Origin: Hyphomicrobiales bacterium
GTDB lineage: Bacteria; Pseudomonadota; Alphaproteobacteria; Rhizobiales; Xanthobacteraceae
DNA length: 15,027 nucleotides
Direction of reading: 5' to 3'
NCBI GenBank assembly: GCA_016201085.1
Contig: JACQDO010000226.1
Span: forward strand, 1 to 15,027
Both the position numbers and the translations under genes were made by a program. The notes beneath the pieces were generated by a model. The model did not search any database, was not told the DNA's origin, and saw nothing but the letters and a program-made list of their open reading frames with translations. The first letter of the stretch is position 1. Every line of letters begins with the position of its first letter. Shown here piece after piece: positions 1 through 13,432 of the stretch.

Positions 1-462
1 CTCGATGCCTGCCGGGCCGCCGACATCGCGGTCGAAGTTGTTCCCGGCATCACGGCAGCGCAAGGCGCAGCCGCCAGGCTCGGCCTGCCGCTCACCGACC
101 GCCAACATGCGCGCCGGCTGCAATATGTCACCGGCCACGCCAAGGACGGCCAGCTACCCGCCGATATCGATTGGCGCAGCCTTGCCGATCCCACGACCAC
201 CACGGCGATCTACATGCCAACCAAAACGCTGGAGACTTTGGTCACGCGCGCCATCGCCGCGGGCCTCGACCCGACAACGCCGGCCATCGCCATCGCCCGC
301 GCCACGCGGCCCGATCAGGCGGTGGTCGCCGCAGCCATAAGCGAGCTACCCGCCCGCCTGGCGCAGGCCGCTTTGCCGGGCCCGGTGCTGGTGATGCTGG
401 GGCGCACCCTCGGCGCGCGGATGGCCGAGCGGGCCGTCACGCCTGTGCGCCGGCACGGCTGA
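1..462 (+). CDS. cobA: Uroporphyrinogen-III C-methyltransferase (SUMT), C-terminal part, 5' end outside window
   Basis: The frame is open from base 1 to the TGA at 460-462, giving 153 visible residues. The protein starts in mid-domain with VEVVPGITAAQGAAARLGLP and continues with PLTDR, LQYVTGHAKDG, TAIYMPTKTLETL and PGPVLVMLGRTL. This is the order of conserved blocks in the second half of the tetrapyrrole methylase fold: PGITA..G, the TGH block, the Y-M block and the C-terminal V.GR. Such enzymes use S-adenosylmethionine to methylate uroporphyrinogen III at C2 and C7, giving precorrin-2 for siroheme or cobalamin synthesis in the cytoplasm. The first half, with the N-terminal SAM-loop glycines, is outside the window. 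I therefore cannot say whether this is a stand-alone SUMT or the C-terminal domain of a CysG-type fusion. It converges on the TPR gene, with 12 bp between the stops. Confidence 0.88.
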   Translation, partial: LDACRAADIAVEVVPGITAAQGAAARLGLPLTDRQHARRLQYVTGHAKDGQLPADIDWRSLADPTTTTAIYMPTKTLETLVTRAIAAGLDPTTPAIAIARATRPDQAVVAAAISELPARLAQAALPGPVLVMLGRTLGARMAERAVTPVRRHG

Positions 463-474
463 TTGTGCGCCGGA

Positions 475-3400
475 TTATAAACTCTGCGCGGTCTTGGAGC
501 GCAGCGGCTTGGCCTTCGGCAAGGGCACGCCGCCCGCGCCGAAATCCGGCGCTTTCATGGTGGCCGGCTCCTGTTTGACGACCGGCGTCGGCTTGGGCAG
601 CACCACGACCGGAGCGGCCACCGGTTCGAACAGCATCGGCCGCAGCCCCGGACTGACCGGCGGGAAGGTATCGGCCGCATAGGCGTAGGCATTGTACTGG
701 TTGCTGCGGATCGGCTGGTTGGCGTCCTGGATGATGCGGTCGCCCTCGCGCCGGTTCTCGTAAGCGCTGCCACGGTCGTTGAAGCTCACCGAATAAGTCG
801 GCTTGCTCGCGACCACCGGATCGAGCGAGGCGATGGTGCGGTCGTAGTCGTGCTTGTCGTAGAAAGCGATGCCGCGGTCGAGGAAGGCGATGGCGAAGTT
901 CGGATTGAGCTTGATCGCCTGGTTGATGTCCTGCGTGGCGCGGTCGAACTCGCGCCGGTCGTAATAGGCGATGCCGCGATTGTAGAGCGCCAGCGCATAG
1001 CTCGGATTGAGCGCCAGCGCCTGGCTGTAGTCGGCGACGGCGCGCTCGAATTCGCCCTTGTTGCGATAGCCGAAGCCGCGATTGTTGAAGGCGTGCGCGT
1101 TCTTGGGGTCGAGACTGATGGTCTGGCTGAAATCCAGGATCGCCTTGTCGAAATCGTTCTTGTTGTCGTAGGCGATGCCGCGGGCGTTGTAGGCGGCCGC
1201 GAAGAGCGGGTCGAGTGAGATCGCGGCGTCGAAATCCTTGATGGCGCGGTCGAGGTCGCGCCTCACGTAATAAGCGTTGCCGCGGTTGTAGAGCGCGATC
1301 GTATAACCGGCGTTGATCTTGATCGCCTCGCCGAAGTCGGCAATGGCGCGGTCGGTCTCGCCCCGGTTGCGATAGGCGAAGCCGCGGTTGTTGAAGGCGA
1401 CCGCGTTCCTCGGATCGAGCTTGAGCGCGGCATCGAGGTCGACGATGGCGCGGTCGTTGTCGCCGCGCATGCCGTAGCTGGTGCCGCGGTTGATGAGGGC
1501 GTCCGCCGATTTTGCATCGAGCCGCACCGCCTGTTCGAAATCGGCGATGGCGCGCTCCAGATCGCCCTTCATGCGATAGGCGAGACCGCGATTGTCGAAC
1601 GCCCCCGCGTTGCGGGCATTGAGCCGGATGGCCTGGCTGAAATCGTTGATGGCGCGGTCGTAGTCGCGTTTGTCGCGGTAGCTGAGGCCGCGGTGGTAGA
1701 AAGCGAGTTCGTAGTTGGGATTGAAGCGGGTCGCCTCGCCGAAATCGGCGATGGCGCGGTCGAAATCGCGTTTCTCGTAATTGGCATTGCCGCGCTGATA
1801 GAAGCCGAGCGCGAATTTGCCGTCGAGCTTGACCGCCTCGCTGAAGTCGGCAATGGCGCGATCGATGTCGCCCTTGAGCCGGTAGGCGATGCCGCGGTTA
1901 TAGAACGCCAGCGCATGCTTGGCATCGAGCCGGGCGGCCTCGTTGAAATCGGCGATGGCGCGGTCGAGATCGCCCTTGGCGCCGTAGCTCAGCGCGCGGT
2001 CGTAATAGGCCAGCACGTAGTCCGGCCGCAATCTGATGGCCTGATCGAAGTCGGCGATGGCGCGGTCGTAGTCGCGCTTGAACTCCAGCGCGTTGCCGCG
2101 ATTGTAATAGGCCACCGCATGATTCGGGTTGATCTTGACGGCCAGATCGAAGTTCTGGATGGCGCGGTCGACATCGTGCTTGTCGCGATAGGCGAGACCG
2201 CGGTTGTAAAAAGCCAGGCTGTTGCGGCCGTCGAACTTGACCGCCTGCTCGAAGTCGGCGAGCGCGCGGTCGACATCGCCCTTGGCGGCGTAGGCGACGC
2301 CGCGATCGTTATAGCCCTGCGCGTAGCTCGGGTTGAGCTTGAGCGCGAGGGTCAGATCGGCGATGGCGCGTTCGTAGTCGCGCCGGGTGGCGTAGGCGTT
2401 GCCGCGGTTGTTCAAGGCGAGCGTGTCGGCCGCATTGAGCCGGACCGCGCTGTCGTAGTCGGCGATGGCCTGCGCGTAGTCGCCCTTGTCGTATTTGGCG
2501 TTGGCGCGATTGTAGAAGGCGGTGGCATAGCCGGCATTCAGCTTGATCGCCTGGTCGTAGTCCTGGATGGCGCGGTCGAGCTGGTTCTTGGCGGCATAGG
2601 CGATGGCGCGGTTGTTGAAAGTCGGCGCGTGCTGCGGGTTGAGCGTGACGGCCTGGTCGAAATCGGCGATGGCGCGGTCGGGATCGCCCTTGAGCCCATA
2701 AACGATGCCGCGCTCGTTGAACGCCATGGCCTGGCCGGGACTGAACAGGATCGCCTGCGTCAGGTCGGCGATCGCCTTGTCATAGGCGCCCTTGCTGGCC
2801 AGCGAATTGCCGCGCGCGATGAACGCCAGGGCCAGCTTGGGATTGAGCTTGATCGCCTGGTTGAAATCCTCGATGGCGCGGTCGAAATCGCGCTGTTCGT
2901 GGTAGGCGATGCCGCGGTTGTAGAAAGCGGCCGCGTTGCTCGGGTCGAGTTTGCCGGCCTGCTCGAAGTCCTGAATGGCGCGGTCGTAATCCTCGCGTTC
3001 GTAGCGCGCGACGCCACGGTCGTAATAGGCCATGGCGTCCTTCGCGTTCAGCCGGATGGCCTGGTCGTAGCTGGCGATGGCGCGCTCATGGTCGCGCTTC
3101 TGGAAAAACGCGTTACCGCGATTGTAGTAGGCGACGGAGAAGCTCGGATTGATCCGGATGGCGCGATCGAAGCCGGCGATGGCTTTGTCGAATTCGCCTT
3201 TCGCGGCGGCAGCGATGCCGCGATCGTTATAAGCGAGCGTGAAGATGGGGCTGAGCCGGATCGACTGCGCCAGCGCCATGGTGTCGCGGTCGTAGCCGCG
3301 CTGGTTGCGGATTTCGTCGCTTTTCGGGCTGGCCGCGATGGTGAATTGCGGATTGATCTTGATCGCGGATTCGAAGTCCGCGATGGCGTGTTCGAAGTCG

Positions 3401-6400
3401 CGCTTTTCGTAGTAGGCGATGCCGCGGCTGTGATGGGCGTACGCATCCTTGCCGTCGAGCTTGATCGCCTGATCGTAGTCGGCGATGGCGCGGTCATAGT
3501 CGTGCTTGTCGAAATAGGCGTTGCCGCGGTTGTAGTACGCGACCGAATAGCCTTGGTTGAGCTTGATCGCCTCGCTGAAGTCGGCGACCGCGCTGTCGCT
3601 GTTGCCTTTGTTGCGATAGGCGACGCCGCGATTGTTCAGCGCGATGGCGTTCTTCGGATCGAGTTTGAGGGCGTGGTCGAAATCCTGGATGGCGCGGTCG
3701 GTCTCGCCCTTGGTGCCATAGGCGACGCCGCGATCGTAATAGGCCCGCACATAGCTCGGATCGAGTTTGATCGCCTCGCTGAGGTCGGCGATGGCGTGAT
3801 CGTAGTCGCGCTTGTCCAGATAGGCGTTGCCGCGGTTGCTGAAGGCCAGCGCGAAGCTCGGATCGATCTTTTGCGCCGTGCTGAAATCGGCGATGGCGCT
3901 GTCGTTGTCGCCCTTGGCGCGATAGGCGAGACCGCGGTGGTTGTAGGCCACCGCCAGCTTGCCGTCGTTCCGGATCGCCTGGCTGAAGTCGCCGATGGCG
4001 CGGTCGTACTCGCGCTTGCTGCTGTACGCGAGGCCGCGTGAATTGTAGGCCAGCGCGTTGCTGGGATTGAGCCGGATGACCTGGTCGAGATCCTTGATGG
4101 CGCGGTCGTGATAACCGAGCGTCTGCAAGGTCTCGCCGCGGTTGAACAGCGCCAGCGCGAAGCCGGAATTGATGGTGATGGCCTGGTCGAAGTCGCGCAC
4201 CGCGCGTTCGAGCTCGCCCTTGTTCTTGTAGGCCATGCCGCGGTTGTTCAAGGCGGCGTCGAAATGCGCATTGGCCTTGATGGCCCCGTCGAAGTCGGCG
4301 ATGGCGCGGTCGAGCTCGTCGCGGCCCTGGTAGATGGCGCCGCGATTGTTGAGCGCGACCGCGAAATTGGCATCGAGCGCGATCGCCTGGTCGAGATCGG
4401 CAAGCGCATGCGGGATGTCGCCCTTGCGCTGATAGAGCAGGGCGCGGCTGTTGAACACGCCGGCGTAGCTCGGGTTGAACTTGATGGCCTGCTCGAAGTC
4501 CAACAAAGCGCGATCGATCTTGCCGCGCGCGGCATAGGTGTTGCCGCGCTCGGTGAAGGCGGCGGCGTATTTCGGGTCGAGCTTGATCGCCTGGTCGTAG
4601 TTGCTTATCGCGCGTTCGTAGTCGCCTTTGCTCTGATAAGCATTGCCGCGGTCGACATAGGCCGCGGTGAATTTCGCATCGATATGCAAGGCCTGGTCGA
4701 AATCGGCGATGGCGCGGTCGAAATCGCGCCGGTCGCGATAGGCCAGGCCGCGGCCGTAGACGGCAAGCGAGTCGTTCGGATCGAGCCGGACCGCACTGCT
4801 CAGATCGGCGATGGCCCGGTCGTAGCTGCGGCGCTGGTAATACGCCATGCCGCGATTGTAATAAGCCGCGCCGAAGTTGGCATTGAGCTTGATCGCCTGA
4901 TCGAAATCGGCGAACGCGCGCTCCTCGTCGTTGAGGCCGAGATAGCTGGAACCGCGCGCGTTATAGGCGGCGGCATGCTTGACATCGAGCTTGATCACGC
5001 GCGTGAAATCGGCGACCGCGCGCTGGTGGTCGCGCTTATCGTGATAGACCAGCCCGCGGCTGAAATAGGCGCTGGCATAATTTGGGTTGGCCTTGATCGC
5101 CTCGTCGAAATCGGCGATGGCGCGCTCTAAATTGCGCGATTTCTGATGTGCGTCGCCGCGATTGCTCAGTGCCGCGGCGAATTTCGGATCGATGCGCAAA
5201 GCCTGATCGAAATCGGCGATGGCGCGGTCGCTGTCGCCCTTGCCGTTATAGGCGAGCCCGCGCACGTTGAAGGCGGCGGTGTAATCGGGCTTGATATTGA
5301 TCGCCTTGTTGAGATCGGCGATGGCTTGGTCATAGTCGCGCTTCTCGTAGAGCGCGTTGCCGTGCTCGTAATAGGCGTCGGCGTTCTTATCGGCGAGTGC
5401 GCGATCGATACTGCCGCGTTCGCGATAGACGATGCCGCGATGGTAGTAAGCCAGCGTATGCTTCGGGTCGAGGCGGATGGCTTGGCTGAAATCGGCGATG
5501 GCGCGCTCGTCCTCGTGCTTGGCGCGCAGCACCAGCCCGCGATTGTAGAAGGCGAGCGCGTTTTTCGGATCGATGCGGATCGACTGATCGAAATCGGCGA
5601 TGGCGCGGTCGGCCTCCTTGCGCGCGGCATAGGTGACGCCGCGGTTGTAATAGGACAACGCATCCTTGGGATCGAGCTTGATCGCCTGCGCCAGGTCGCG
5701 CAGCGCCCGGTCGTAATCGTGCTTGTTGAAATAGGCGATGCCGCGGTCGTAATAGGCCAGCGCGTATTTGCCGTCGAGACGGATCGCCTGATCGTAATTC
5801 TGAATGGCGCGATCGTAGTTGCGCTTGTCGTAATAGGCGTTGCCGCGATTGTAATAGGCCAGCTGGTAGTTGGGATTGAGCAGCAGGGCCTGGTCGTAGT
5901 CCTTGATGGCGCGGTCGGTCTCGCCGCGGTTGCGATAGGCCAGGCCGCGATTGTTGTAGGCGAAGGCGTCGCGCGGATCGAGCAGAATGGCGCGGTCGTA
6001 GTCCTGGATGGCGCGGTCGCTGTTGCCCTTGGCGGCGTAGGCGATGCCGCGGTCGTTGAGCGCCAGGATGAAGTCGGGGGTGATCTTGATCGCCTGGTCG
6101 AAATCCTGGATCGCGCGCTCGTAATCGCGGATGTCGCGATAGGCCAGCCCGCGGCTGTGATAGGCGAACGCGTCGCTGACGTTGAGCTTGATGGCGCGGT
6201 CGTAATCCGGGATGGCGCGGTCGGGTTCGCCCTTGGCGCGATAGGCCATGCCGCGATTGTAGTAGGCGAGCCCGAAATTCGGATTGAGTCTGATCGCCTG
6301 ATTCAAATTGTTGATGGCGTGATCGTAATCGCGCCGGTCATAATAGATGTGGCTGAGCGTATCGAACGCGACCGCGTTTTTCGAATCGTACTTGACCGCC

Positions 6401-6768
6401 TGTTCGAGATCCTGCAACGCGCGATCGGTCTCGCCGCGATCGCGGAACGCCAGTCCGCGATTGTAGAACGCTTCGCCGTTATTCGAATCGATGAGGATCG
6501 CCGCGTCGAAGTCGCGAATGGCGCGATCGCTGTCGCCCTTGGCGCGATAGGCCTTGCCGCGACTGATGAGCGCGTCGGACTTTTCTTTCGGGACCAGTGT
6601 CTGTTCGATCGCCGTGGTGCAGCTGCTGATGCGCAGATCGGTCGAGGCGGCTTCCTTGCCTTCGCATCTGAGCTGCTCGTGCGTCGCGGCGAATGAATGC
6701 TGCGCGGCCGTCAGCGTCAATGACGCCGCCATCGCGCCTATCCAGAATCGTCGCACTCCCCAGATCAT
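475..6768 (-). CDS. Giant exported tetratricopeptide-repeat protein (2097 aa, 58 TPR units)
   Basis: ATG start at 6768, with GAGG about 6 nt upstream; TAA stop at 475-477. Residues 1-27 form a signal peptide: Arg-Arg, then a hydrophobic stretch IGAMAASLTLTAA, with probable cleavage after SFA27. Residues 28-64 form a short cap with Cys35 and Cys50, which could pair once exported. Residues 65-2027 are 58 consecutive TPR units, 57 of exactly 34 residues and one of 25. A typical unit reads LAYYNRG.AYYDKRDYDRAI, then ADFDQAIKLDPK and two variable residues. It keeps the Gly, Ala, Ala and Pro of canonical TPR positions 8, 20, 27 and 32. The last two units are degenerate. Residues 2028-2097 form a Pro/Val/Ala/Lys-rich tail without repeats. 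TPR arrays bind proteins or peptides, so this one is predicted to be a very long periplasmic or secreted scaffold. No partner can be named. It appears monocistronic. Long TPR proteins of this style occur in Rhizobiales, but the repeat number here is exceptional. Confidence 0.95.
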   Translation of the reverse strand: MIWGVRRFWIGAMAASLTLTAAQHSFAATHEQLRCEGKEAASTDLRISSCTTAIEQTLVPKEKSDALISRGKAYRAKGDSDRAIRDFDAAILIDSNNGEAFYNRGLAFRDRGETDRALQDLEQAVKYDSKNAVAFDTLSHIYYDRRDYDHAINNLNQAIRLNPNFGLAYYNRGMAYRAKGEPDRAIPDYDRAIKLNVSDAFAYHSRGLAYRDIRDYERAIQDFDQAIKITPDFILALNDRGIAYAAKGNSDRAIQDYDRAILLDPRDAFAYNNRGLAYRNRGETDRAIKDYDQALLLNPNYQLAYYNRGNAYYDKRNYDRAIQNYDQAIRLDGKYALAYYDRGIAYFNKHDYDRALRDLAQAIKLDPKDALSYYNRGVTYAARKEADRAIADFDQSIRIDPKNALAFYNRGLVLRAKHEDERAIADFSQAIRLDPKHTLAYYHRGIVYRERGSIDRALADKNADAYYEHGNALYEKRDYDQAIADLNKAINIKPDYTAAFNVRGLAYNGKGDSDRAIADFDQALRIDPKFAAALSNRGDAHQKSRNLERAIADFDEAIKANPNYASAYFSRGLVYHDKRDHQRAVADFTRVIKLDVKHAAAYNARGSSYLGLNDEERAFADFDQAIKLNANFGAAYYNRGMAYYQRRSYDRAIADLSSAVRLDPNDSLAVYGRGLAYRDRRDFDRAIADFDQALHIDAKFTAAYVDRGNAYQSKGDYERAISNYDQAIKLDPKYAAAFTERGNTYAARGKIDRALLDFEQAIKFNPSYAGVFNSRALLYQRKGDIPHALADLDQAIALDANFAVALNNRGAIYQGRDELDRAIADFDGAIKANAHFDAALNNRGMAYKNKGELERAVRDFDQAITINSGFALALFNRGETLQTLGYHDRAIKDLDQVIRLNPSNALAYNSRGLAYSSKREYDRAIGDFSQAIRNDGKLAVAYNHRGLAYRAKGDNDSAIADFSTAQKIDPSFALAFSNRGNAYLDKRDYDHAIADLSEAIKLDPSYVRAYYDRGVAYGTKGETDRAIQDFDHALKLDPKNAIALNNRGVAYRNKGNSDSAVADFSEAIKLNQGYSVAYYNRGNAYFDKHDYDRAIADYDQAIKLDGKDAYAHHSRGIAYYEKRDFEHAIADFESAIKINPQFTIAASPKSDEIRNQRGYDRDTMALAQSIRLSPIFTLAYNDRGIAAAAKGEFDKAIAGFDRAIRINPSFSVAYYNRGNAFFQKRDHERAIASYDQAIRLNAKDAMAYYDRGVARYEREDYDRAIQDFEQAGKLDPSNAAAFYNRGIAYHEQRDFDRAIEDFNQAIKLNPKLALAFIARGNSLASKGAYDKAIADLTQAILFSPGQAMAFNERGIVYGLKGDPDRAIADFDQAVTLNPQHAPTFNNRAIAYAAKNQLDRAIQDYDQAIKLNAGYATAFYNRANAKYDKGDYAQAIADYDSAVRLNAADTLALNNRGNAYATRRDYERAIADLTLALKLNPSYAQGYNDRGVAYAAKGDVDRALADFEQAVKFDGRNSLAFYNRGLAYRDKHDVDRAIQNFDLAVKINPNHAVAYYNRGNALEFKRDYDRAIADFDQAIRLRPDYVLAYYDRALSYGAKGDLDRAIADFNEAARLDAKHALAFYNRGIAYRLKGDIDRAIADFSEAVKLDGKFALGFYQRGNANYEKRDFDRAIADFGEATRFNPNYELAFYHRGLSYRDKRDYDRAINDFSQAIRLNARNAGAFDNRGLAYRMKGDLERAIADFEQAVRLDAKSADALINRGTSYGMRGDNDRAIVDLDAALKLDPRNAVAFNNRGFAYRNRGETDRAIADFGEAIKINAGYTIALYNRGNAYYVRRDLDRAIKDFDAAISLDPLFAAAYNARGIAYDNKNDFDKAILDFSQTISLDPKNAHAFNNRGFGYRNKGEFERAVADYSQALALNPSYALALYNRGIAYYDRREFDRATQDINQAIKLNPNFAIAFLDRGIAFYDKHDYDRTIASLDPVVASKPTYSVSFNDRGSAYENRREGDRIIQDANQPIRSNQYNAYAYAADTFPPVSPGLRPMLFEPVAAPVVVLPKPTPVVKQEPATMKAPDFGAGGVPLPKAKPLRSKTAQSL
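688..6576 (-). repeat. 58-unit tandem TPR-coding repeat, 102-bp period
   Basis: The unit is 102 bp (34 codons). Tiling by hand from residue 65 accounts for every residue to 2027: 57 units of 34 plus one of 25. The block coding for DRAI, seen on the + strand as GATGGCGCGGTCG and close variants, recurs at about 102-bp spacing. I count an exact DRAI in 27 of 58 units; most others have ERAI, DRAL, DKAI or DHAI. Units differ at many synonymous and surface positions, so the array is old and diverged, not a fresh identical tandem array. Only unit 12 breaks the length register, and only unit 33 has lost the motif internally. Confidence 0.93.
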
Positions 6769-7094
6769 GCGGCCTCGTCATTCCTGGTGTTGTATTACCT
6801 GCGCCGAGCCAGAGCTTTGTTTCGATGGCGAAGCTAAATGAAATGTTGCCCGTGGAGTCGCGCGCGTCGAGGAAATGAAAGAGTTAAGATTAATCTTTGA
6901 GCAGCGATGTCGCGCATCGCGTTAACGCAATCGGGTTAATGCAATCCGTGTTGCATTTACGAAAATAAGTTAAAGCGGCCGCGTCGACGGCGAACGATCG
7001 CCGCGCAACGGTCATCGCGGCGTGCGCCGGCAAAGGCGATCGCCTCGTCGTGTTGCGAGCAAAGTGAAAATGGCAAGCGGAGTGAAACGTCCGG
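6769..7094. promoter_or_regulatory. Intergenic region upstream of the TPR gene with clustered dyads
   Basis: No credible gene is visible in these 326 bases. The segment 6886-6957 is crowded with symmetry. AAGATTAATCTT (6886-6897) is a perfect 12-bp palindrome. GCGATG/CATCGC (6904-6909, 6915-6920) is an inverted repeat with a 5-nt spacer. GTTAACGCAATC (6921-6932) and TTAATGCAATCC (6936-6947) form a near-direct repeat about 14 bp apart. AATGCAA/TTGCATT (6938-6944, 6951-6957) is a perfect inverted repeat with a 6-nt spacer. This lies 120-190 bp upstream of the TPR start and probably holds its promoter and operator. I cannot assign a confident -35/-10 pair. A 7-bp GC-rich inverted repeat at 6999-7022 sits downstream of the NlpC-like gene but has no T-tract. 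Confidence 0.45.
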
Positions 7095-7682
7095 CTACTT
7101 GAGCGCCGCGGCGCGCGCCGCCGCCGCCATATCCTCGAGCACGTAAGTAGGCGGCATCACATAGGCGATGACTTTGTGCTTGGGATAGACCGCTTCCTTG
7201 ACCGTCGGGCCATGGTTGCCCGATACGACGATCGGATTGCCGTCGCCGTCGGTGCCGCGCACGACGCCGACATGGCCGGTGTTGGGGCCGCCACGATAGA
7301 ATATGGCGATGGCGCCGACACGCGGGCCGTCGAGCTTCTTGCCGAACTGGAGGAACGAACGCGACGAGCGCGACTGCGTGCCTTTGCCGCCGGCCTGGCG
7401 GAAAACGTAATTCATGAAGTCGGCGCACCACAGCGTGGTCGGCAGGCCCATCTGTTTGGCCGTGCGGCCGCGCCAGCGCAGGGCCTCCAACAGCACGGCG
7501 GCGGCGCCGGGCACTTGCGCGGCGGCCAGCGCGGCGTCGCTGCGGCTGCGCGCCAACGGCTGTGCCTCGGAACGTTCGGTGATGGCAAATCGCTCGTTGC
7601 TACTGACGCCGGCTGCCTGTGCCGGCATGGCGATGCCAAATGCGAGAACGGAGATACTCAACGCTACAAACGCACGCTGCAT
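7095..7682 (-). CDS. Exported NlpC/P60/CHAP-like cysteine peptidase-fold protein (TIGR02594-type)
   Basis: 195 residues; ATG at 7682. The upstream region carries only a weak GGAAA about 9 nt before the ATG. Residues 1-23 are a signal peptide ending in AQA, so the protein is predicted to be periplasmic or secreted. The catalytic-domain pattern is clear: LWCADFMNYVF with Cys86, then VGAIAIFYRGG, NTGHVGVV with His137, and VVSGNHG with Asn156. This gives a Cys-His-Asn triad of the papain-like NlpC/P60/CHAP fold used to cut or bind peptidoglycan peptides. The spacing and the 'GNHG' ending resemble the small TIGR02594 family, whose substrate is not firmly known. The C-terminal 15-20 residues are Ala-rich and possibly helical. 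It lies alone between long spacers, so it is probably its own transcription unit. The fold is fairly sure; the enzymatic target is inferred. Confidence 0.82.
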   Translation of the reverse strand: MQRAFVALSISVLAFGIAMPAQAAGVSSNERFAITERSEAQPLARSRSDAALAAAQVPGAAAVLLEALRWRGRTAKQMGLPTTLWCADFMNYVFRQAGGKGTQSRSSRSFLQFGKKLDGPRVGAIAIFYRGGPNTGHVGVVRGTDGDGNPIVVSGNHGPTVKEAVYPKHKVIAYVMPPTYVLEDMAAAARAAALK

Positions 7683-7958
7683 TTTTTGTTTTTCCGATCG
7701 ATCGACTTGATCGACCGGATCCCCCCTTACCCGACCCCACTCTGCTTACGGCACCCTATCCTATTTTTTATTACACCAGGGCGAAGAGATTTCGGCAAGA
7801 CGTTCGTGAAGCTAGTTAATCTTCGCGATCCTCGCGATTGGCCGAATCGTCGGCAAGCCGCGTCTCGTCGCAATCCCCCGCCGCATAGTGTTATGGTTAA
7901 AGCGCGCGATGACGCAAGAAATAGTGACGCTATTGATGGAAAAATTATCCGGTAAAAA
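7683..7958. other. AT-rich spacer between tonB and the NlpC-like gene
   Basis: These 276 bases hold no convincing gene. They must contain the promoter of the NlpC-like gene and the end of the tonB transcript. Visible small elements are the palindromic CGATCGATCG near 7697-7706, an AATAG/CTATT inverted repeat with a 5-nt spacer (7920-7934), and a direct repeat AAAAATTAT (7940-7948 and 7954-7962) overlapping the tonB stop. No GC-rich hairpin with a T-tract follows tonB. Confidence 0.4.
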
Positions 7959-8543
7959 TTATTTAAAATTGTAACGGATCGGCACCACCACGGCGATCTG
8001 CCCGCCTTGGATTTCCGCCGGCGGCGGCGGCAGCGGCTGCGCGCGTTCGAGCAGAGCCAGGGTCTCGCGATCGAGCACGCTGGAGCCGGAACTGTGCGCG
8101 ATACGCGCGTTATGCACGCCGCCGCCGCGATCGATGCTGAAGGCGAGCTGCGCCACGCCGTATGGCGCGCTGGCGAGGCTGGCGTGTTTCTGCTTCGGCG
8201 TCTTGTCCTTCGGCTTCTCGATCGGCTTCGGCAGCGTCACCGGCAGCTCGGCCTGCGGCGTTTGCGTCAGCTCGATTTTCTCGACCGGCTTGACCGGCTG
8301 CGGCTCCGGCCGCGCTTCCGCCTGTTGCGGGCCGGGCGGCAATTCGTTCGGCGTGGTGACGGGCGCGACCGGCACCGGCGCCAGCTCGAGCATGATCACC
8401 GGCGCATTGGCCAGCAGGTCGGCGCCGTCGTTCCAGCGCGCCAGCAGGGCGGCGGCGCCGGCGGCGTGAAACGACAGCGCCAGCGTAAAGCAAACGCTCC
8501 AGCGCGCCGTCTCCGGCCAGCGGGCTGCGCGCGTTTGCCTCAT
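7959..8543 (-). CDS. tonB: TonB family energy-transducing protein with shortened C-terminal domain
   Basis: 194 residues. The ATG at 8543 overlaps the exbD stop as ATGA, so translation is probably coupled. Residues 17-36 form one N-terminal membrane helix. Residues 52-120 are a Pro/Lys/Glu-rich periplasmic spacer (for example PQPVKPVEK, LPKPIEKPKDK). The rest matches the second part of the TonB C-terminal domain: VAQLAFSIDRGG, ARIAHSSGSSVLDRETLALL, AQPLPPPP and VVVPIRYNF. TonB carries proton-motive energy from ExbB-ExbD to TonB-dependent receptors. Unusually, the segment that normally precedes the first strand (Trp, an amphipathic helix, then KRYP or a similar Tyr-Pro) is absent: the spacer runs through ASLASAPYG straight into the strand. 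No frameshift is evident. Function as a TonB is likely but altered receptor contact is possible. Confidence 0.88.
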   Translation of the reverse strand: MRQTRAARWPETARWSVCFTLALSFHAAGAAALLARWNDGADLLANAPVIMLELAPVPVAPVTTPNELPPGPQQAEARPEPQPVKPVEKIELTQTPQAELPVTLPKPIEKPKDKTPKQKHASLASAPYGVAQLAFSIDRGGGVHNARIAHSSGSSVLDRETLALLERAQPLPPPPAEIQGGQIAVVVPIRYNFK

Positions 8544-8968
8544 GGCGGCAGCTTCTCCGCTTCGAGACCGACCAGCGCCACATGCAGATAGCCGGCGCCG
8601 CGCAGCTCGTTCATCAGCGCCATCAGTTCGCCATAGGGCACGGCCTTGTCGGCGCGCAGGAACACGCGCTGCTGCTTGTCGCCGGCGCTGGCGCGGTCGA
8701 GCGTGGCCGCCAGCGCGGCGCGGCCGATATTATCGTTGTCGATCGCCAGACTGAGATCCGATTTCAGCGTCAGATACAGCGGCTTGTCCGGGCGCGGCGC
8801 CGTCTCGGCATTGGCGGCCGGCAGATCGACGGAGATATCGACGGTGGCCAGCGGCGCCGCGATCATGAAGATGATCAGCAGCACCAGGATCACGTCGATG
8901 AACGGCGTGACGTTGATCTCGTGCACTTCGTCGAGTTCGTCGCCGCCATGGTCGAGACGCACGCTCAT
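8540..8968 (-). CDS. exbD: ExbD biopolymer transport protein
   Basis: 142 residues. The N-terminus has the ExbD signature EINVTPFIDVILVLLIIFM, with the single membrane helix at about residues 22-42. Asp25 falls at the position of the essential membrane aspartate of Escherichia coli ExbD. A periplasmic domain follows, ending with VFLRADKAVPYGELMALMNEL and an ALVGLE motif, as in the family. It works with ExbB as the proton channel/motor that drives TonB. Its start lies 7 nt after the exbB stop and its stop overlaps the tonB start, so exbB-exbD-tonB is a tight operon. Confidence 0.95.
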   Translation of the reverse strand: MSVRLDHGGDELDEVHEINVTPFIDVILVLLIIFMIAAPLATVDISVDLPAANAETAPRPDKPLYLTLKSDLSLAIDNDNIGRAALAATLDRASAGDKQQRVFLRADKAVPYGELMALMNELRGAGYLHVALVGLEAEKLPP

Positions 8969-8975
8969 GGTGGGC

Positions 8976-9812
8976 CTACTCCGCTGCCGTCACGGCGCGG
9001 CGGCGCTCGGCCGGGCGCTGCTCGAACGCGCCGCGATCGAGGTCGCGGCTGACGATGCGCAGGATTTCCGCGGTGGCGTCGGCATGCAGCGCGCGGTAGC
9101 CGGCGGTCCAGCGCGCGAATATGTTGTACATCACCACCGCCGGGATCGCCGCCACCAGGCCGAGCGCGGTCGCCAGCAGCGCCTCGGCGATGCCGGGCGC
9201 CACCACCGCCAGATTGGTGGTGTGCGACTTCGAGATGCCGATGAAGCTGTTCATGATGCCCCACACCGTGCCGAACAGTCCGACGAACGGTGCGGTGGCG
9301 CCGATGGTGGCGAGGATGCCGGTGCCGCGGATCATCCGGCGGCCGGCGGCGGCCTCCAGCCGTTCCAGCCGCGAGACGATGCGCTCTTTCACGCCATCGG
9401 TTACCATGGCGTCGGCCGACAGCCGCAATTCGGCGTCGGCGGCGCGTACCAGCAGGGCGGCGCTATCGCCGGCGCCCTGCAGGCGCGCGACGGCCTCACG
9501 CCAGCTGCGCGCGGCGTCGAGCGCGTCGATCGCGATGCGCAGGCGCCGGCGCGCCATCATCAGCTCGATCGCCTTGGCGAACCAGATCGTCCAGGTCAGC
9601 ACCGAGGCGAATACCAGGCCCACCATCACGGCTTTGACCACGATATCGGCCGCCAGGAACATGCCCCAGGGCGACAGGTCGCGCGGCAGCTTGAGCAGCA
9701 CGTCGGATTCGGGCGCCGTCTGCGCCAGGGCCAATGCCGGCAGCAGCAGACCCACGGCCAGCAGGGCGGCCAAAAGCGGTCGGCGCTGCGGAATGCAAGT
9801 ATTACGGCTCAT
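8976..9812 (-). CDS. exbB: ExbB proton-channel protein of the TonB system, with N-terminal signal-like extension
   Basis: The ATG at 9812 is preferred (278 residues): AGG sits about 8 nt upstream, while the in-frame GTG three codons earlier has no clear ribosome site. The first about 30 residues form a hydrophobic signal-like segment ending ALALAQTAP, followed by a short periplasmic stretch. Three membrane helices lie near residues 53-80, 160-182 and 202-232. The C-terminal MotA/TolQ/ExbB core is highly conserved: ATIGATAPFVGLFGTVWGIM and GIAEALLATALGLVAAIP. Glu210 corresponds to the membrane glutamate, and Thr182 and Thr215 to the channel threonines. ExbB forms the pentameric proton-conducting scaffold around ExbD. 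The extension is usual in alphaproteobacterial ExbB. Confidence 0.94.
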   Translation of the reverse strand: MSRNTCIPQRRPLLAALLAVGLLLPALALAQTAPESDVLLKLPRDLSPWGMFLAADIVVKAVMVGLVFASVLTWTIWFAKAIELMMARRRLRIAIDALDAARSWREAVARLQGAGDSAALLVRAADAELRLSADAMVTDGVKERIVSRLERLEAAAGRRMIRGTGILATIGATAPFVGLFGTVWGIMNSFIGISKSHTTNLAVVAPGIAEALLATALGLVAAIPAVVMYNIFARWTAGYRALHADATAEILRIVSRDLDRGAFEQRPAERRRAVTAAE

Positions 9813-9945
9813 CGCACACACCTGTGTATTGTTCCATTTCTGCCGGCCCGCCTAGTGAAACACTTTAACCGGAGATTCTACAAAAGCATGGCCGGCGACG
9901 CGGCCGGAAAACGCCCGACCGCGCTCGCGTAAGCAGGCCAAAAGC

Positions 9946-10257
9946 TCAGTTGGCTTTCTGCATCTTCACGACCGTGAACTGGCCATTCACCTTGTCGGCC
10001 TCGAACTTCACCTTGTCCCCCACCTTGACCCCCTTGAGCATCGCCGGATCCTGGACGCGGAACACCATGGTCATGCCCTCATCCATGCCCAGGTTCTTGA
10101 GCGGGCCGTGCTTGAGCGTGATCTTGCCCGCGGTCTGATCGATCTTGGCGACCTGCCCGTCCACCACGCTCGATTGGGCCAGGCCGCGATTCGATAGCGT
10201 CGTGGCCCAAAGAGTAAGAACGCTGGCGATGACAAGTGACATTTTGCGCATGGTCAT
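9946..10257 (-). CDS. CusF-like periplasmic copper-binding protein
   Basis: 103 residues with a signal peptide (cleavage likely after GLA27). The mature part is a small beta-barrel of the CusF/CusB C-terminal type: VDGQVAKIDQTAGKITLKHG, then the metal loop with EGMTMVFRV, then VGDKVKFEA and FTVVKM. In CusF of Escherichia coli, His36, Met47 and Met49 bind Cu(I) or Ag(I) and Trp44 caps the ion. Here His50, Met62 and Met64 are present, but the Trp position appears to be filled by a non-aromatic residue (GMDEGMTM). The expected role is periplasmic Cu(I) carriage. An ATG at 10257 lies 3 nt after AGGAG, while a second ATG two codons on (10251) has the better 9-nt spacing; either could be the start. 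It follows the beta-barrel gene by 33 nt and probably shares its transcript. Confidence 0.85.
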   Translation of the reverse strand: MTMRKMSLVIASVLTLWATTLSNRGLAQSSVVDGQVAKIDQTAGKITLKHGPLKNLGMDEGMTMVFRVQDPAMLKGVKVGDKVKFEADKVNGQFTVVKMQKAN

Positions 10258-10290
10258 TCTCTCCTCTTGACGAATTATCGCGGTCAGATG

Positions 10291-11229
10291 TCAATTGAAC
10301 TCGTATCCGACTCCCAACCTCACGAGCCCTCTCTGACTGACCTCAGTCAGTCCAACGGCGCCACCAATCATGAAATGAAATCCGTTCTGCAGGTGCGTCA
10401 TGACATTTAATCCGAGATAGTGCTCCGTTATAGCCGGATTGATGGTCATACCCAAGGATGTATCGCCCAGGCCACCGAACAGTTCCGCTCCAAGCTTGAT
10501 GTGCGCTATCCCCCACCGTCCGTCGTCGGCGCCAGCGGCAGCGGCGTGTTGGTGAGGATAAGCGCCAACGCCAGGGTGTCGCGCCTCGCCCCCTTTCGCG
10601 TTGTAGATCATGTAATTGAGGCCAAGCGCATAGCCAAAGTCGGTTCGCCCGGCGGTGTTCACAAAAATATCCGTCTCATTGATCCAATTGAACGACACGC
10701 TCAGTTTGTCACTCAGGTCCTGGCCCAGGATAAGTCGTGTTTCGAGAATGCGTTCGGTGTTGCGCTCCGTATTTTCCGGCTTATCCGTGCGACCGCTGAT
10801 TTCCATGACGTATTTTGTGGTCGGTTTCAGGTTCTCGTATTCCACGTAGAGGCCCGGGTTGAGGAAAGTACCGTAGTCAAACAGCCGATAGCGGTTCTCC
10901 CAGCGCCAACCGGTGTATTGATACCCCTCACCTGATGTTTTCTGCCCCTCCATCATCAATTCAGTTTCCCACTGATCGGTCATGGCGCGCTCGATCATCA
11001 ACATCTGAGCGCTGTAGGACGGCTCGCCAGGCGCACCGCGGCCGAAATCGTTGAGTAACATGACAGAGACCGTGCCCTGCTTTTCGGTATGATGATCGTA
11101 CAGGACGAAATTTGCTTCGTTCCCCGACCAAGCTTGCCGATCGGCGGGCAGCAACCCAAATGCGGCCAGGAACAAAACCAATCGCGTTCGCCGCCACGCC
11201 GAAAACGTTCCAATCGGAAGACAATTCAT
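10291..11229 (-). CDS. Predicted outer-membrane beta-barrel protein, function unknown
   Basis: 312 residues from the ATG at 11229, chosen because AAAGG lies 7 nt upstream and a proper signal peptide then follows (RR, then LVLFLAAFGLLPA). An ATG nine codons earlier (11256) has no clear ribosome site. The mature sequence alternates aromatic and polar residues in strand-like stretches (WRWENRYRLFDYGTF, NPGLYVEYE, SVSFNWINETDIF, FGYALGLNYMIYN, FHFMIGGAVGLTE) and ends in a strand, LVRLGVGYEFN, as barrel proteins do. One long loop (about residues 213-240) is rich in His, Gly, Ala and Asp, with His218, His226 and His228; His46-His47 lie near the N-terminus. I do not recognise a characterised family. 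The gene sits between the TonB-dependent receptor and the CusF-like gene, only 31 nt after the receptor stop. Three hand-counted lines give 94/180 GC (52%), far below the genes on either side. Confidence 0.8.
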   Translation of the reverse strand: MNCLPIGTFSAWRRTRLVLFLAAFGLLPADRQAWSGNEANFVLYDHHTEKQGTVSVMLLNDFGRGAPGEPSYSAQMLMIERAMTDQWETELMMEGQKTSGEGYQYTGWRWENRYRLFDYGTFLNPGLYVEYENLKPTTKYVMEISGRTDKPENTERNTERILETRLILGQDLSDKLSVSFNWINETDIFVNTAGRTDFGYALGLNYMIYNAKGGEARHPGVGAYPHQHAAAAGADDGRWGIAHIKLGAELFGGLGDTSLGMTINPAITEHYLGLNVMTHLQNGFHFMIGGAVGLTEVSQRGLVRLGVGYEFN

Positions 11230-11260
11230 ATGACACCTTTGCGATATTGCTTTCATGAGA

Positions 11261-13432
11261 TCAGTAACTCGCGGTTATGGAAACGCGCGCCGCGCGCGGC
11301 GAGCCCGGCGTGATGTTGTTGTTGGCGTCGGCGGTCGGGTAGTACCGCGTGCCGAAGATGTTTTCCACGTTGAGCTGGGCGCGCAGGTGCTTGTTCAGTT
11401 TGTAGAACACGGCGCCGTCGACCCGGGTGTAGGCGGGCAGGATGACCGTATCGTCCGAGCTGGCATAGAAATCGCTCGTGCCGATCACGCCGAGGCCGGC
11501 GCCCCAGTTGTCGGTGAAATCGTAGCGGTTCCACAGACTGAACTGGTTGTAGGGCACCAGCGCGACCCGGTTGCCCGGCAAGATGATTGTCGAGGTCGCA
11601 CCGACCACGCGCGCGTCGGTATAGGCGTAGCCGGCGGTGATCTGCCACTGGTCGGTGACATAGCCGGCCAGCGAGGTTTCGAAACCGCGCGTCTTGGTGG
11701 CACCGCTCAGGATGAAGAAGCCGGCATTGACCGGATCGGGAAAGCGCGAATTGGTGCGATCGAGCTCATAGATCGCCGCGGTCAAAGCCAGGCGCGGCGT
11801 CACGTCCCATTTCACGCCGATCTCCTTGTTGACGAATTTCTCCGGTTCCGCGGAAACCAGCCCCGGCGTCAGGCTGTTGAACTGATCGCCCGAGGACGGC
11901 AGATACGACACGCTGTAGCTGCCATAGAGCGAAACCTGCTCGACCGGCTTGAGCACGATGCCGGCACGCGGCGAGACCAGATTGTCGATACGGCCGAAGG
12001 TCTGGCCGTAGGCCGCGCTCTGTCCATTGAGGTTGACATAGCCGAGATCGAAGCGGTCGAAGCGCACGCCGCCGATGAATTGCAGCCAGCGCGTCAACTC
12101 GATCTGATCCTGGCCGTAGGCCGCCGCGATGTTGAGGTTGGTGCGATTGCGCGCGTCGCTCGCCAAGCCCCGAAAGGTCACCGGCACGAACGAGACCGGG
12201 TTGCTGGCCGGCACCGTGATGGTCGTCGTCAAATTGTTGAAGAAGCCGGTGAAGCGGGCATTGGCCGACTTCTGGTTGGCGAACTCGGTGCCGAACAGCA
12301 AGGTGTGCTTGATCGGCCCGGTATTGGCCTTATAGGTCCAGTCCGTCTGGTTGATGATGTTCTGCCGGTCGTTGGTGTTGTTGTAGGCGGCGAGCGTGGC
12401 GAGGCCGCCGGCGGTCACCGGCGAGGCGGCGTTGGGATAGACGTTCTGATAGAATTTCTTGCTGTCCTGGAACCGCGTCTGGTTCTTGACCTTCAGCCCG
12501 TTGTCGAAAACATGATCGACCGAGGCCATGACGATGTTCGAGGTCGTCGGCGTGTAGCTCAAGTCCGGGTTGCCGAAGAATGTCGAATATCCGGCCGGAA
12601 AATACGGTTGCCCGTTCTGCGACGGGACGCCGCGATCCTGCACGCGGCGGTCGTAGAAATATTCGTAAGACAGCGTGACCTTGGTGGCGGCCGACGGCGT
12701 CCAGGTGAAGGTCGGGTTGATGCCGTAGCGCTTGAGATTGGTGAAATCCCGGTAGCTGTCGGACTGCTCGTACACCGCGTTGAGGCGTGCGGCGAAGCTG
12801 TCGTTGACCCGGCCGCCGGCATCCGCCGACACGCGGGCGTCGTTGAATGAGCCGCCCAGCGCCGTGACTTCGCGGCGCGTGACGCCGTCGGCTTCTTTCA
12901 GCACGCGATTGAGCACGCCGCCGCCGCCGCCGCGGCCGAAAATCATCGCGTTCGGTCCCTTGAGCAATTCGACGCGTTCGGCATTGTAAAGATCGCGGAA
13001 AAGCTGCGCGTCGTCGCGCATGCCGTTGACGAAGAAATCGGCGGTCGAACTCTGGCCGCGGATGACGATCTGGTCGCGATTGTTCTCGCCCTGGTGCCAG
13101 ACCACGCCCGGCACGTAGCGCACGACGTCCTCCAGCTTCAGCGCGCCGGTGTCGGCGATCTGCTGCTTGGTGACGACGGTGATCGACTGCGGCACGTCGC
13201 GCAGCGGCGTGTCGGTCTTGGTCGCGGTCGAGGTGCGGGTGGCGAGATAGCCGACCGTTCCGCCGGCATCGCCCTGTACGTTGATGGTGTCGAGCGTCAC
13301 AGCCTGCGCGTTCGCCTCGAGCGCTTGCTCGGTTTTGTCCTTGGCGAGCGCGTCCGCCATCCCCGCCGCTGCAACCAAGATCGCCATCGCCGGCAAAGCC
13401 GCAAGGCGCCGGCCCATCCCCTGTCTACCCAT
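11261..13432 (-). CDS. TonB-dependent siderophore-type outer-membrane receptor
   Basis: 723 residues; ATG at 13432 behind AGGTGGAG. The signal peptide ends at about ADALA30. TLDTINVQG (residues 46-54) is a plausible TonB box. The plug (about 75-185) has the family blocks DVPQSITVVTKQQIAD, EDVVRYVPGV, VIRGQSSTADFFVNGMRDD, and ERVELLKGPNAMIFGRGGGG with VLNRVLK. A full-length 22-strand barrel follows and ends in an aromatic residue (VSITASY). This layout fits the siderophore receptors of the FhuE/Fiu/FpvA group (TIGR01783-like), which take up ferric siderophores using TonB-ExbB-ExbD energy. Family membership is clear; the substrate is not. A catecholate such as Fiu ligands is a guess, and the CusF-like neighbour leaves a copper-binding ligand open. 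It is the first gene of the minus-strand cluster and is preceded by an ICE-like operator. Confidence 0.93.
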   Translation of the reverse strand: MGRQGMGRRLAALPAMAILVAAAGMADALAKDKTEQALEANAQAVTLDTINVQGDAGGTVGYLATRTSTATKTDTPLRDVPQSITVVTKQQIADTGALKLEDVVRYVPGVVWHQGENNRDQIVIRGQSSTADFFVNGMRDDAQLFRDLYNAERVELLKGPNAMIFGRGGGGGVLNRVLKEADGVTRREVTALGGSFNDARVSADAGGRVNDSFAARLNAVYEQSDSYRDFTNLKRYGINPTFTWTPSAATKVTLSYEYFYDRRVQDRGVPSQNGQPYFPAGYSTFFGNPDLSYTPTTSNIVMASVDHVFDNGLKVKNQTRFQDSKKFYQNVYPNAASPVTAGGLATLAAYNNTNDRQNIINQTDWTYKANTGPIKHTLLFGTEFANQKSANARFTGFFNNLTTTITVPASNPVSFVPVTFRGLASDARNRTNLNIAAAYGQDQIELTRWLQFIGGVRFDRFDLGYVNLNGQSAAYGQTFGRIDNLVSPRAGIVLKPVEQVSLYGSYSVSYLPSSGDQFNSLTPGLVSAEPEKFVNKEIGVKWDVTPRLALTAAIYELDRTNSRFPDPVNAGFFILSGATKTRGFETSLAGYVTDQWQITAGYAYTDARVVGATSTIILPGNRVALVPYNQFSLWNRYDFTDNWGAGLGVIGTSDFYASSDDTVILPAYTRVDGAVFYKLNKHLRAQLNVENIFGTRYYPTADANNNITPGSPRAARVSITASY

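Follow-up and report, generated by a model that had tools for sequence, protein, structure and literature searches.

A predicted exported 58-unit tetratricopeptide-repeat protein of fixed unit number and its linkage to cell-wall enzyme genes in Xanthobacteraceae

The stretch of DNA considered here, referred to as the window, comprises 15,027 nucleotides of a Hyphomicrobiales bacterium (contig JACQDO010000226.1 of assembly GCA_016201085.1), whose genus is, by inference, Pseudolabrys within the Xanthobacteraceae. Its main feature is a complete minus-strand open reading frame (ORF) at 475..6768, running from ATG to stop over 2097 codons, that encodes a giant protein built of tetratricopeptide repeats (TPRs). 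Upstream of this gene, after an intergenic gap of 326 bp by ORF coordinates (6769..7094), lies a gene on the same strand for a secreted-type CHAP (TIGR02594) cell-wall hydrolase (7095..7682). These two genes are flanked upstream by tonB, exbD and exbB (7959..9821, minus strand; Pfam and NCBIfam), and downstream by the convergent 3' portion of a cysG-like gene for siroheme synthase (1..462, plus strand; PF00590), a full-length relative of which, with siroheme domains, is present in locus L156.

The giant starts with a signal peptide (residues 1-28; 6685..6768), recognised by eye with cleavage near HSFA/ATHEQ, which leads into a two-cysteine cap (residues 29-65; 6574..6684) whose C35 and C50 are the sole cysteines of the protein, tryptophans being limited to residues 3 and 9. 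Scoring with a 34-residue profile, aided at units 12 and 33 by alignment of relatives, then resolves residues 66-2028 into 58 units: units 1-11 (residues 66-439; 5452..6573), a truncated unit 12 of 25 residues (440-464; 5377..5451), units 13-32 (465-1144; 3337..5376), a degenerate unit 33 with the sequence QRGYDRD..SPIF (1145-1178; 3235..3336), and units 34-58 (1179-2028; 685..3234). The chain ends in a Pro-rich tail with the motif VPLPKAKP (2029-2097; 478..684), all of these features being encoded on the minus strand. A hidden Markov model (HMM) of the unit likewise counts 58, the residue autocorrelation is 0.40 at lags of 34, 68 and 102, and Pfam TPR_1 scores 1303.7 bits over 49 stretches, which together with the 34-residue period identifies the protein as a TPR repeat protein. 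The 56 clean units share a mean pairwise protein identity of 44%.

A first-pass annotation, made from the sequence alone, had described the signal peptide, the two-cysteine cap and the 58 units, and all three hold, with the qualification that the 58 consist of 56 clean units, the truncated unit 12 and the degenerate unit 33. The export it proposed is supported by signal-like N-termini in the relatives, again judged by eye, and by cap cysteines that are both invariant over 19 alignment rows. It had also seen no catalytic domain, and indeed only TPR-type families appear among the best 25 of 27 Pfam and the best 25 of 35 NCBIfam families, with no enzyme domain standing out from the repeats. The giant is thus a TPR array in which no catalytic domain is recognised, which supports the view that it should act by binding. 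The Pro-rich tail is present in the window, where the final 60 residues hold 12 prolines, but is not a conserved feature, as it is missing from four of the 20 full-length genus proteins, window counted (L011, L014, L015, L016), which stop shortly past unit 58. A VP[ML]PxARP-like motif near the C-terminus is seen in many genus relatives, though not in all.

The window is contig C454 in an assembly of 526 contigs and 88.57% completeness. The length of the array might be thought an assembly artefact, as the first-pass annotation had itself cautioned. This is very unlikely because the ORF contains only four recurring 30-mers and no recurring 35-mer, and because an array of the same extent is present in the one-contig genomes G011 and G004. 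At the DNA level the units are on average 61% and at most 81% identical.

The giant was found in 28 of 43 genus genomes, the window's own counted (E <= 1e-60), and, family-wide, in 21 of 258 genomes and four of 47 genera (E <= 1e-150). Eight genomes of three further genera carry giants, namely G069, G112, G172, G187, G201 and G234 (genus g28), G099 (g58) and G072 (g31). Comparison of repeat numbers among homologues, proposed at the outset, reveals a constant count. The genus alignment comprises 22 non-identical sequences including the window, three duplicate loci having been dropped and two sequences (L010, L017) being cut by contig ends. In none of the 19 other full genus proteins has a whole unit been added or deleted between residues 66 and 2028; their indels are of 1-4 residues, besides the nine residues of unit 12. 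Unit 12 is of full length in all 21 other aligned genus sequences, and the window is thus placed by the alignment as the bearer of a private 27-bp in-frame deletion; the same nine residues are also present in all five full proteins of the other genera. These five, which are 51.6-55.8% identical (the G112 piece being partial), equally lack any whole-unit indel, so that the unit number is unchanged in all 24 other full proteins aligned, down to 52% identity. When units are compared one by one, a unit's own position is the best match for 55 of 58 units between the window and L004, for 27 of 58 against L016, for 11 of 58 against G072 and for between 14 and 20 of the 58 units in another three pairs, with a chance expectation of about one.

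Unit 33 is an abnormal TPR in every relative that covers it, where a GYDR-like core is retained, and the one unbroken superhelix that had been envisaged therefore cannot be assumed. The giants of the other genera have about four extra units past unit 58, with a second Cys pair, and are counted at 59-61 units by the unit HMM; given these extra C-terminal units, the ancestral array may have numbered about 62.

What holds the number of units so constant? The chances are roughly even that it has been frozen passively, the units having become too divergent in DNA to recombine, a reading which implies no ruler and which fits any function. The low DNA identity between units and the absence of a recurring 35-mer are in keeping with this, as is the long-term conservation of protein repeats described in general terms (PMC3995336, PMC5120217), by virtue of which a frozen unit number is by itself not unique. 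Set against it are the 27-bp deletion of the window, which indicates that length changes do happen, and the approximately four C-terminal units that distinguish this genus from the others.

The ratio of non-synonymous to synonymous substitution (dN/dS), calculated for six close pairs, is 0.04-0.16 for the repeat region, 0.009-0.10 for units 4-10 and 0.15-0.31 for the tail; on these values the repeat array is under strong purifying selection. Site rates from 20 sequences average 0.87 across the units, and the slowest six-unit run is that of units 4-9 at 0.54, a run as slow having been obtained in one of 10,000 unit shuffles. The slow-evolving stretch of units 4-10 (residues 168-405; 5554..6267, minus strand), defined by site rates and dN/dS, is proposed as the main docking site. 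At the positions that we take to face the groove, the concave positions, evolution is locally slow in units 4-10 (0.55) and in units 19-21 (0.66), which would fit docking in these places.

The neighbouring gene supplies the first indication of what might be bound, and was missed in the first-pass annotation, as was the class A penicillin-binding protein (PBP) gene linked to the giant in other genera. The product scores 98.9 bits against TIGR02594 (cut-off 70.55) and 39.7 against PF05257 (cut-off 26), and C86, H137 and N156, presumably the catalytic residues of the predicted hydrolase, have at most one exception each in 36 sequences, so that a CHAP domain with its Cys, His and Asn is present. 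No solved structure matches the protein at E <= 0.001. CHAP, too, is found in 28 of the 43 genus genomes, window included (E <= 1e-30; weakest best hit 2.3e-62), and these are the identical 28 carriers of the giant, CHAP being absent from all 15 genomes without the giant (G003, G006, G007, G008, G015, G018, G019, G020, G022, G042, G043, G048, G049, G050 and G054). In 27 of the 28 carriers the two genes are adjacent, sharing contig and strand; in the remaining one, G009, they are on separate contigs and the TPR piece lies at the end of its contig. As each carrier genome has only one or two CHAP matches (E <= 1e-30), repeated adjacency by chance is unlikely.

The extent of the inherited unit is given by the empty sites. 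In four of the 15 non-carriers (G050, G018, G003, G008) tonB adjoins the siroheme synthase gene, the two ORFs overlapping or ending no more than about 20 bp apart in the first three. In G008 some 80 bp separate tonB from the start of the next match, which is at the contig end. It follows that the cassette consists of CHAP and TPR genes. In G015 tonB has a different setting, and the contigs of G049, G020 and G043 stop too early to judge. When presence and absence are placed on a tree of rpoB DNA, three changes are required, and these are read as co-losses of CHAP and TPR. The tree holds 16 genomes (15 of the genus plus G187), rpoB having been matched in 18 of the 30 genomes asked, from which G020 and G099 were excluded as having partial genes. 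Over 1000 bootstrap trees three changes were needed in 785, four in 194, five in 14 and two in 7, that is, at least three in 993.

Could the giant instead serve the TonB-ExbB-ExbD system next door, as a scaffold in the periplasm for the uptake of siderophores or metals? The three genes lie just upstream in the window, they are on the same side in all ten long-flank relatives (L019-L028), and genes for a CusF-like protein and a TonB-dependent receptor are nearby. Their inheritance is nonetheless different from that of the cassette, since exbD is kept in seven of the 15 genomes without the TPR gene (E <= 1e-40), G043 has a fragment of 81% identity at the end of a contig, and the other seven show no close exbD. 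The receptor next door is variable, being matched at 74% in one of the ten loci, at 28-34% in four and not at all in five, and no exb or tonB match occurs at the five loci from other genera, where a wall enzyme yet remains. A dedicated role in TonB-driven uptake is thus decidedly improbable.

In those other genera all five loci that include the relevant flank (G187, G234, G069, G099 and G072) have a class A PBP gene in divergent orientation to the TPR gene. The linked PBPs are 65-72% identical to the G187 query, and the L162 and L167 proteins contain the Transgly (PF00912) and Transpeptidase (PF00905) domains that identify the class. In four of the five loci, belonging to two of the three genera, a distance of 4.6-6.1 kb separates CHAP from the TPR gene. 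Beside the PBP gene, on the opposite side from the TPR gene, all five loci have a gene for an exported-type protein of about 350 residues (L185 2236-3303, L189 3411-4454 and L190 11367-12386), which is a candidate regulator of the PBP; the two examples tested have no Pfam match, and a search of the 43 genus genomes at E <= 1e-10, run without a positive control, returned none. In G112 and G172 the CHAP gene, the 350-residue gene and PBP sequence follow one another until the contig has nearly ended, and the giant is on a different contig. Co-inheritance of the PBP with the TPR gene inside Pseudolabrys was considered and rejected, as the best matches, at about 39% identity, turn up in 38 of 43 genomes whether or not the TPR gene is there.

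The recurrence of wall enzymes also bears on whether the giant is a chaperone or protein-binding hub of general use in the periplasm, not specifically connected with the wall, its linkage being due to chance or shared regulation. TPRs bind many clients, and Cys-pair caps are also borne by an exported-type TPR protein from elsewhere, P0112 of a Rhodopseudomonas bin. Such a hub is nevertheless quite unlikely given a presence/absence set identical to that of CHAP and a linkage to wall enzymes that recurs at different chromosomal places. P0112 (1485 residues) itself has a Cys-pair half-cap before NRG-type TPRs and differs from the giant in its spacing (CX11C as opposed to CX14C), in bearing several caps along the chain, and in not ranking among the top 25 proteins by unit count, a group that goes down to 27 units.

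A third setting is provided by the assembly of the window, which contains a second giant (L246; G000:C526, 1-14564) that is 59% identical, has the same unit order and is cut by the contig end. It is divergent from an ORF for a YkuD L,D-transpeptidase, and the contig also bears an autotransporter-domain ORF. The third-position GC of this second giant is 0.70 compared with 0.85, and because of this lower value the contig is possibly a contaminant. The autotransporter-domain ORF, together with the signal peptide, the great length and the variable tail, would suit a secreted or surface protein (matrix component, adhesin or aggregation factor) for which the hydrolase merely opens the wall. Surface repeat proteins are, however, expected to vary in repeat number, which the giant does not, and Pfam and NCBIfam scans show no outer-membrane secretion gene in the cassette, so that a surface role is unlikely.

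With three gene settings that adjoin wall enzymes (CHAP hydrolase, class A PBP, L,D-transpeptidase), the reading preferred here, at a probability of roughly 0.55, is that the giant is an exported TPR solenoid kept in the envelope, most likely the periplasm, where it would scaffold peptidoglycan enzymes. Units 4-10 would dock the CHAP hydrolase, joined in the other genera by the PBP or by its exported neighbour of about 350 residues, and the remaining solenoid, lying along the wall, would keep additional partners at set intervals. Unit 33, where the array is broken, might act as a hinge between arms of 32 and 25 units, at which the giant may bend. In Escherichia coli the short TPR adaptors NlpI, CpoB and LpoA link wall synthases and hydrolases (as described in PMC7049810, PMC11211486 and PMC4458516), and the giant would bring wall hydrolase and synthase together in the same way, within one long molecule. 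An adaptor of 58-62 units whose gene is retained or lost in step with that of a wall hydrolase, and in other genera adjoins a class A PBP gene, would illustrate how several wall enzymes can be organised by a single long repeat protein.

How would such a molecule fit into the envelope? The pitch of a TPR superhelix is 6-7 nm and the periplasm is 20-25 nm wide. At eight repeats per turn (PMC7885266) the 58 units would form about 7 turns and, with this pitch, extend over 43-52 nm. The earlier proposal of a solenoid of seven to eight turns thus stands as regards the turns, but not as regards crossing the periplasm, since the length is about twice the width to be bridged; the giant is probably too long for a radial crossing, and a position along the wall is likelier. 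A bolder version, in which a length-fixed exported rod of about 50 nm serves as a template or ruler that spaces wall hydrolase and synthase, perhaps at a growing pole, is doubtful. If true, it would represent a wall-assembly part of a kind not found described in the literature searched. The giant lends itself to testing directly whether the length of a solenoid is important for the wall.

Several observations count against the scaffold interpretation. The tie to CHAP and PBP is one of gene linkage, and linkage is not binding. The linkage is itself incomplete, in that (i) G072 has the TPR and PBP genes with no CHAP nearby, (ii) the CHAP relative of G201 is situated mid-contig with no TPR, PBP or 350-residue match within 9 kb on either side, (iii) a CHAP relative stands alone on the 7.6-kb contig of G226, (iv) no CHAP match occurs on the 14.6-kb contig of the second giant, and (v) Pseudolabrys is without a close copy of the PBP of the other genera (best about 39% identity). 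The 326-bp gap may mean separate transcripts for the CHAP and TPR genes; a scan of 6650-8050 for sigma-70-like promoters detected none, with 0.6 expected. Within the protein, neither a lipobox after the signal peptide nor a wall-binding domain was found, and over the whole array the concave positions evolve faster (1.07) than signature (0.81) and other (0.85) positions. With respect to co-loss, nine of the 15 non-carriers are at least 90% complete and six are under 90%; as the genes are neighbours and the bins incomplete, a joint absence can be a single missing contig. Bootstrap values fall under 80 on several branches of the tree from rpoB DNA, and a weakly resolved rpoB protein tree needs four changes, of which the well-supported branches force one only.

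The closest functional parallels are found among known exported adaptors. CHAP and NlpC/P60 enzymes have related peptidase folds. NlpI, an outer-membrane lipoprotein of E. coli with four TPRs and a lipid anchor, is described as an exported adaptor for wall endopeptidases that binds several hydrolases, the NlpC/P60 enzyme MepS included (PMC7049810), and that works with LpoA/PBP1A (PMC11211486). The giant is likewise an exported-type TPR protein, but with 58 units, a CHAP neighbour and no lipobox after the signal peptide, its first Cys being residue 35 and the sole lipobox-like pattern within residues 1-60 ending at C50, inside the cap. The NlpI model NF008391 yields 516.7 bits in total (cut-off 250), summed over 26 stretches of which the best covers positions 66-168 of 297, so that a whole-length match in a single stretch is lacking. 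CpoB and LpoA are reported to be TPR proteins that act with class A PBPs, CpoB between PBP1B and Tol (PMC4458516); both are much shorter than the giant and have other domain layouts. Against the CpoB/YbgF model TIGR02795 the giant scores 183.2 bits (cut-off 90.1; best stretch 4-103 of 119), which for a TPR model is weak evidence. The CpoB/YbgF family, which we take to be defined as a short protein of the tol-pal locus, is not one to which a protein of 2097 residues conforms. Tol and ExbBD-TonB are related systems; by NCBIfam cut-offs no Tol gene lies next to the giant, its neighbours passing as ExbB, ExbD and TonB and not as TolQ or TolR. On the best reading the giant resembles NlpI and CpoB in role and belongs to neither family, being, by this analogy, an exported TPR adaptor that differs from known ones in its size, fixed length and gene partnership.

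Other repeat proteins are more distant. The MamA model NF040959 gives 740.7 bits from 16 stretches of a 204-position model, and the giant does not belong to this family, presumably defined as a short TPR protein of the magnetosome gene cluster, magnetosome models being without a match in the other nine window proteins scanned. The NCBIfam equivalogs MamA, PrsT, PilW and NlpI all exceed their cut-offs on the giant through summed repeats, and automatic gene names for such arrays can accordingly mislead. The polar-growth Rgs set of Rhizobiales is described as including RgsF, with TPR/Sel1 repeats, and the giant RgsE/GPR of 2089-2115 residues (PMC7327166); compared by description only, RgsE/GPR differs in being cytoplasmic and membrane-anchored and RgsF in having six Sel1-like repeats. 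The OGT superhelix and consensus or engineered TPR rods (1w3b, 2fo7, 8bu0, 9qhb) are among the best solved sequence relatives, and the giant is expected to share their repeat fold; the longest of the four, 9qhb, has 564 residues with room for about 16 repeats and is shorter than the giant. A claim of record length was dropped, as TPR proteins of up to 3644 residues (P0006) are among the matches listed. The maximum by the window's unit HMM, which undercounts distant units, is 38 units in the 120 proteins listed (1904 hits among 8000 scored candidates), none having 58.

An order-wide draw matched one of 397 genomes, the window's own, and contained no other known carrier. The symbiosis phenotypes once suggested as worth pursuing find no evidence in the record titles of close relatives, which are metagenome bins and one isolate, Pseudolabrys sp. 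Root1462, where the gene is present at locus L025, and a plasmid origin was rejected as there is no megablast match among 72,556 plasmid records. Literature searches found no paper joining Pseudolabrys and tetratricopeptide and, judged by the titles listed, none about such a giant or periplasmic TPR protein. Rfam and tRNA scans of the window gave no matches. Behind exbB, at 9946-13432, are genes for a CusF-like protein, a 321-residue ORF without a Pfam or NCBIfam match, and a TonB-dependent receptor of siderophore type. Finally, an antisense open frame of 782 residues (1693-4041, plus strand) crosses the repeats and is probably a by-product of their repeated GC-rich codons.

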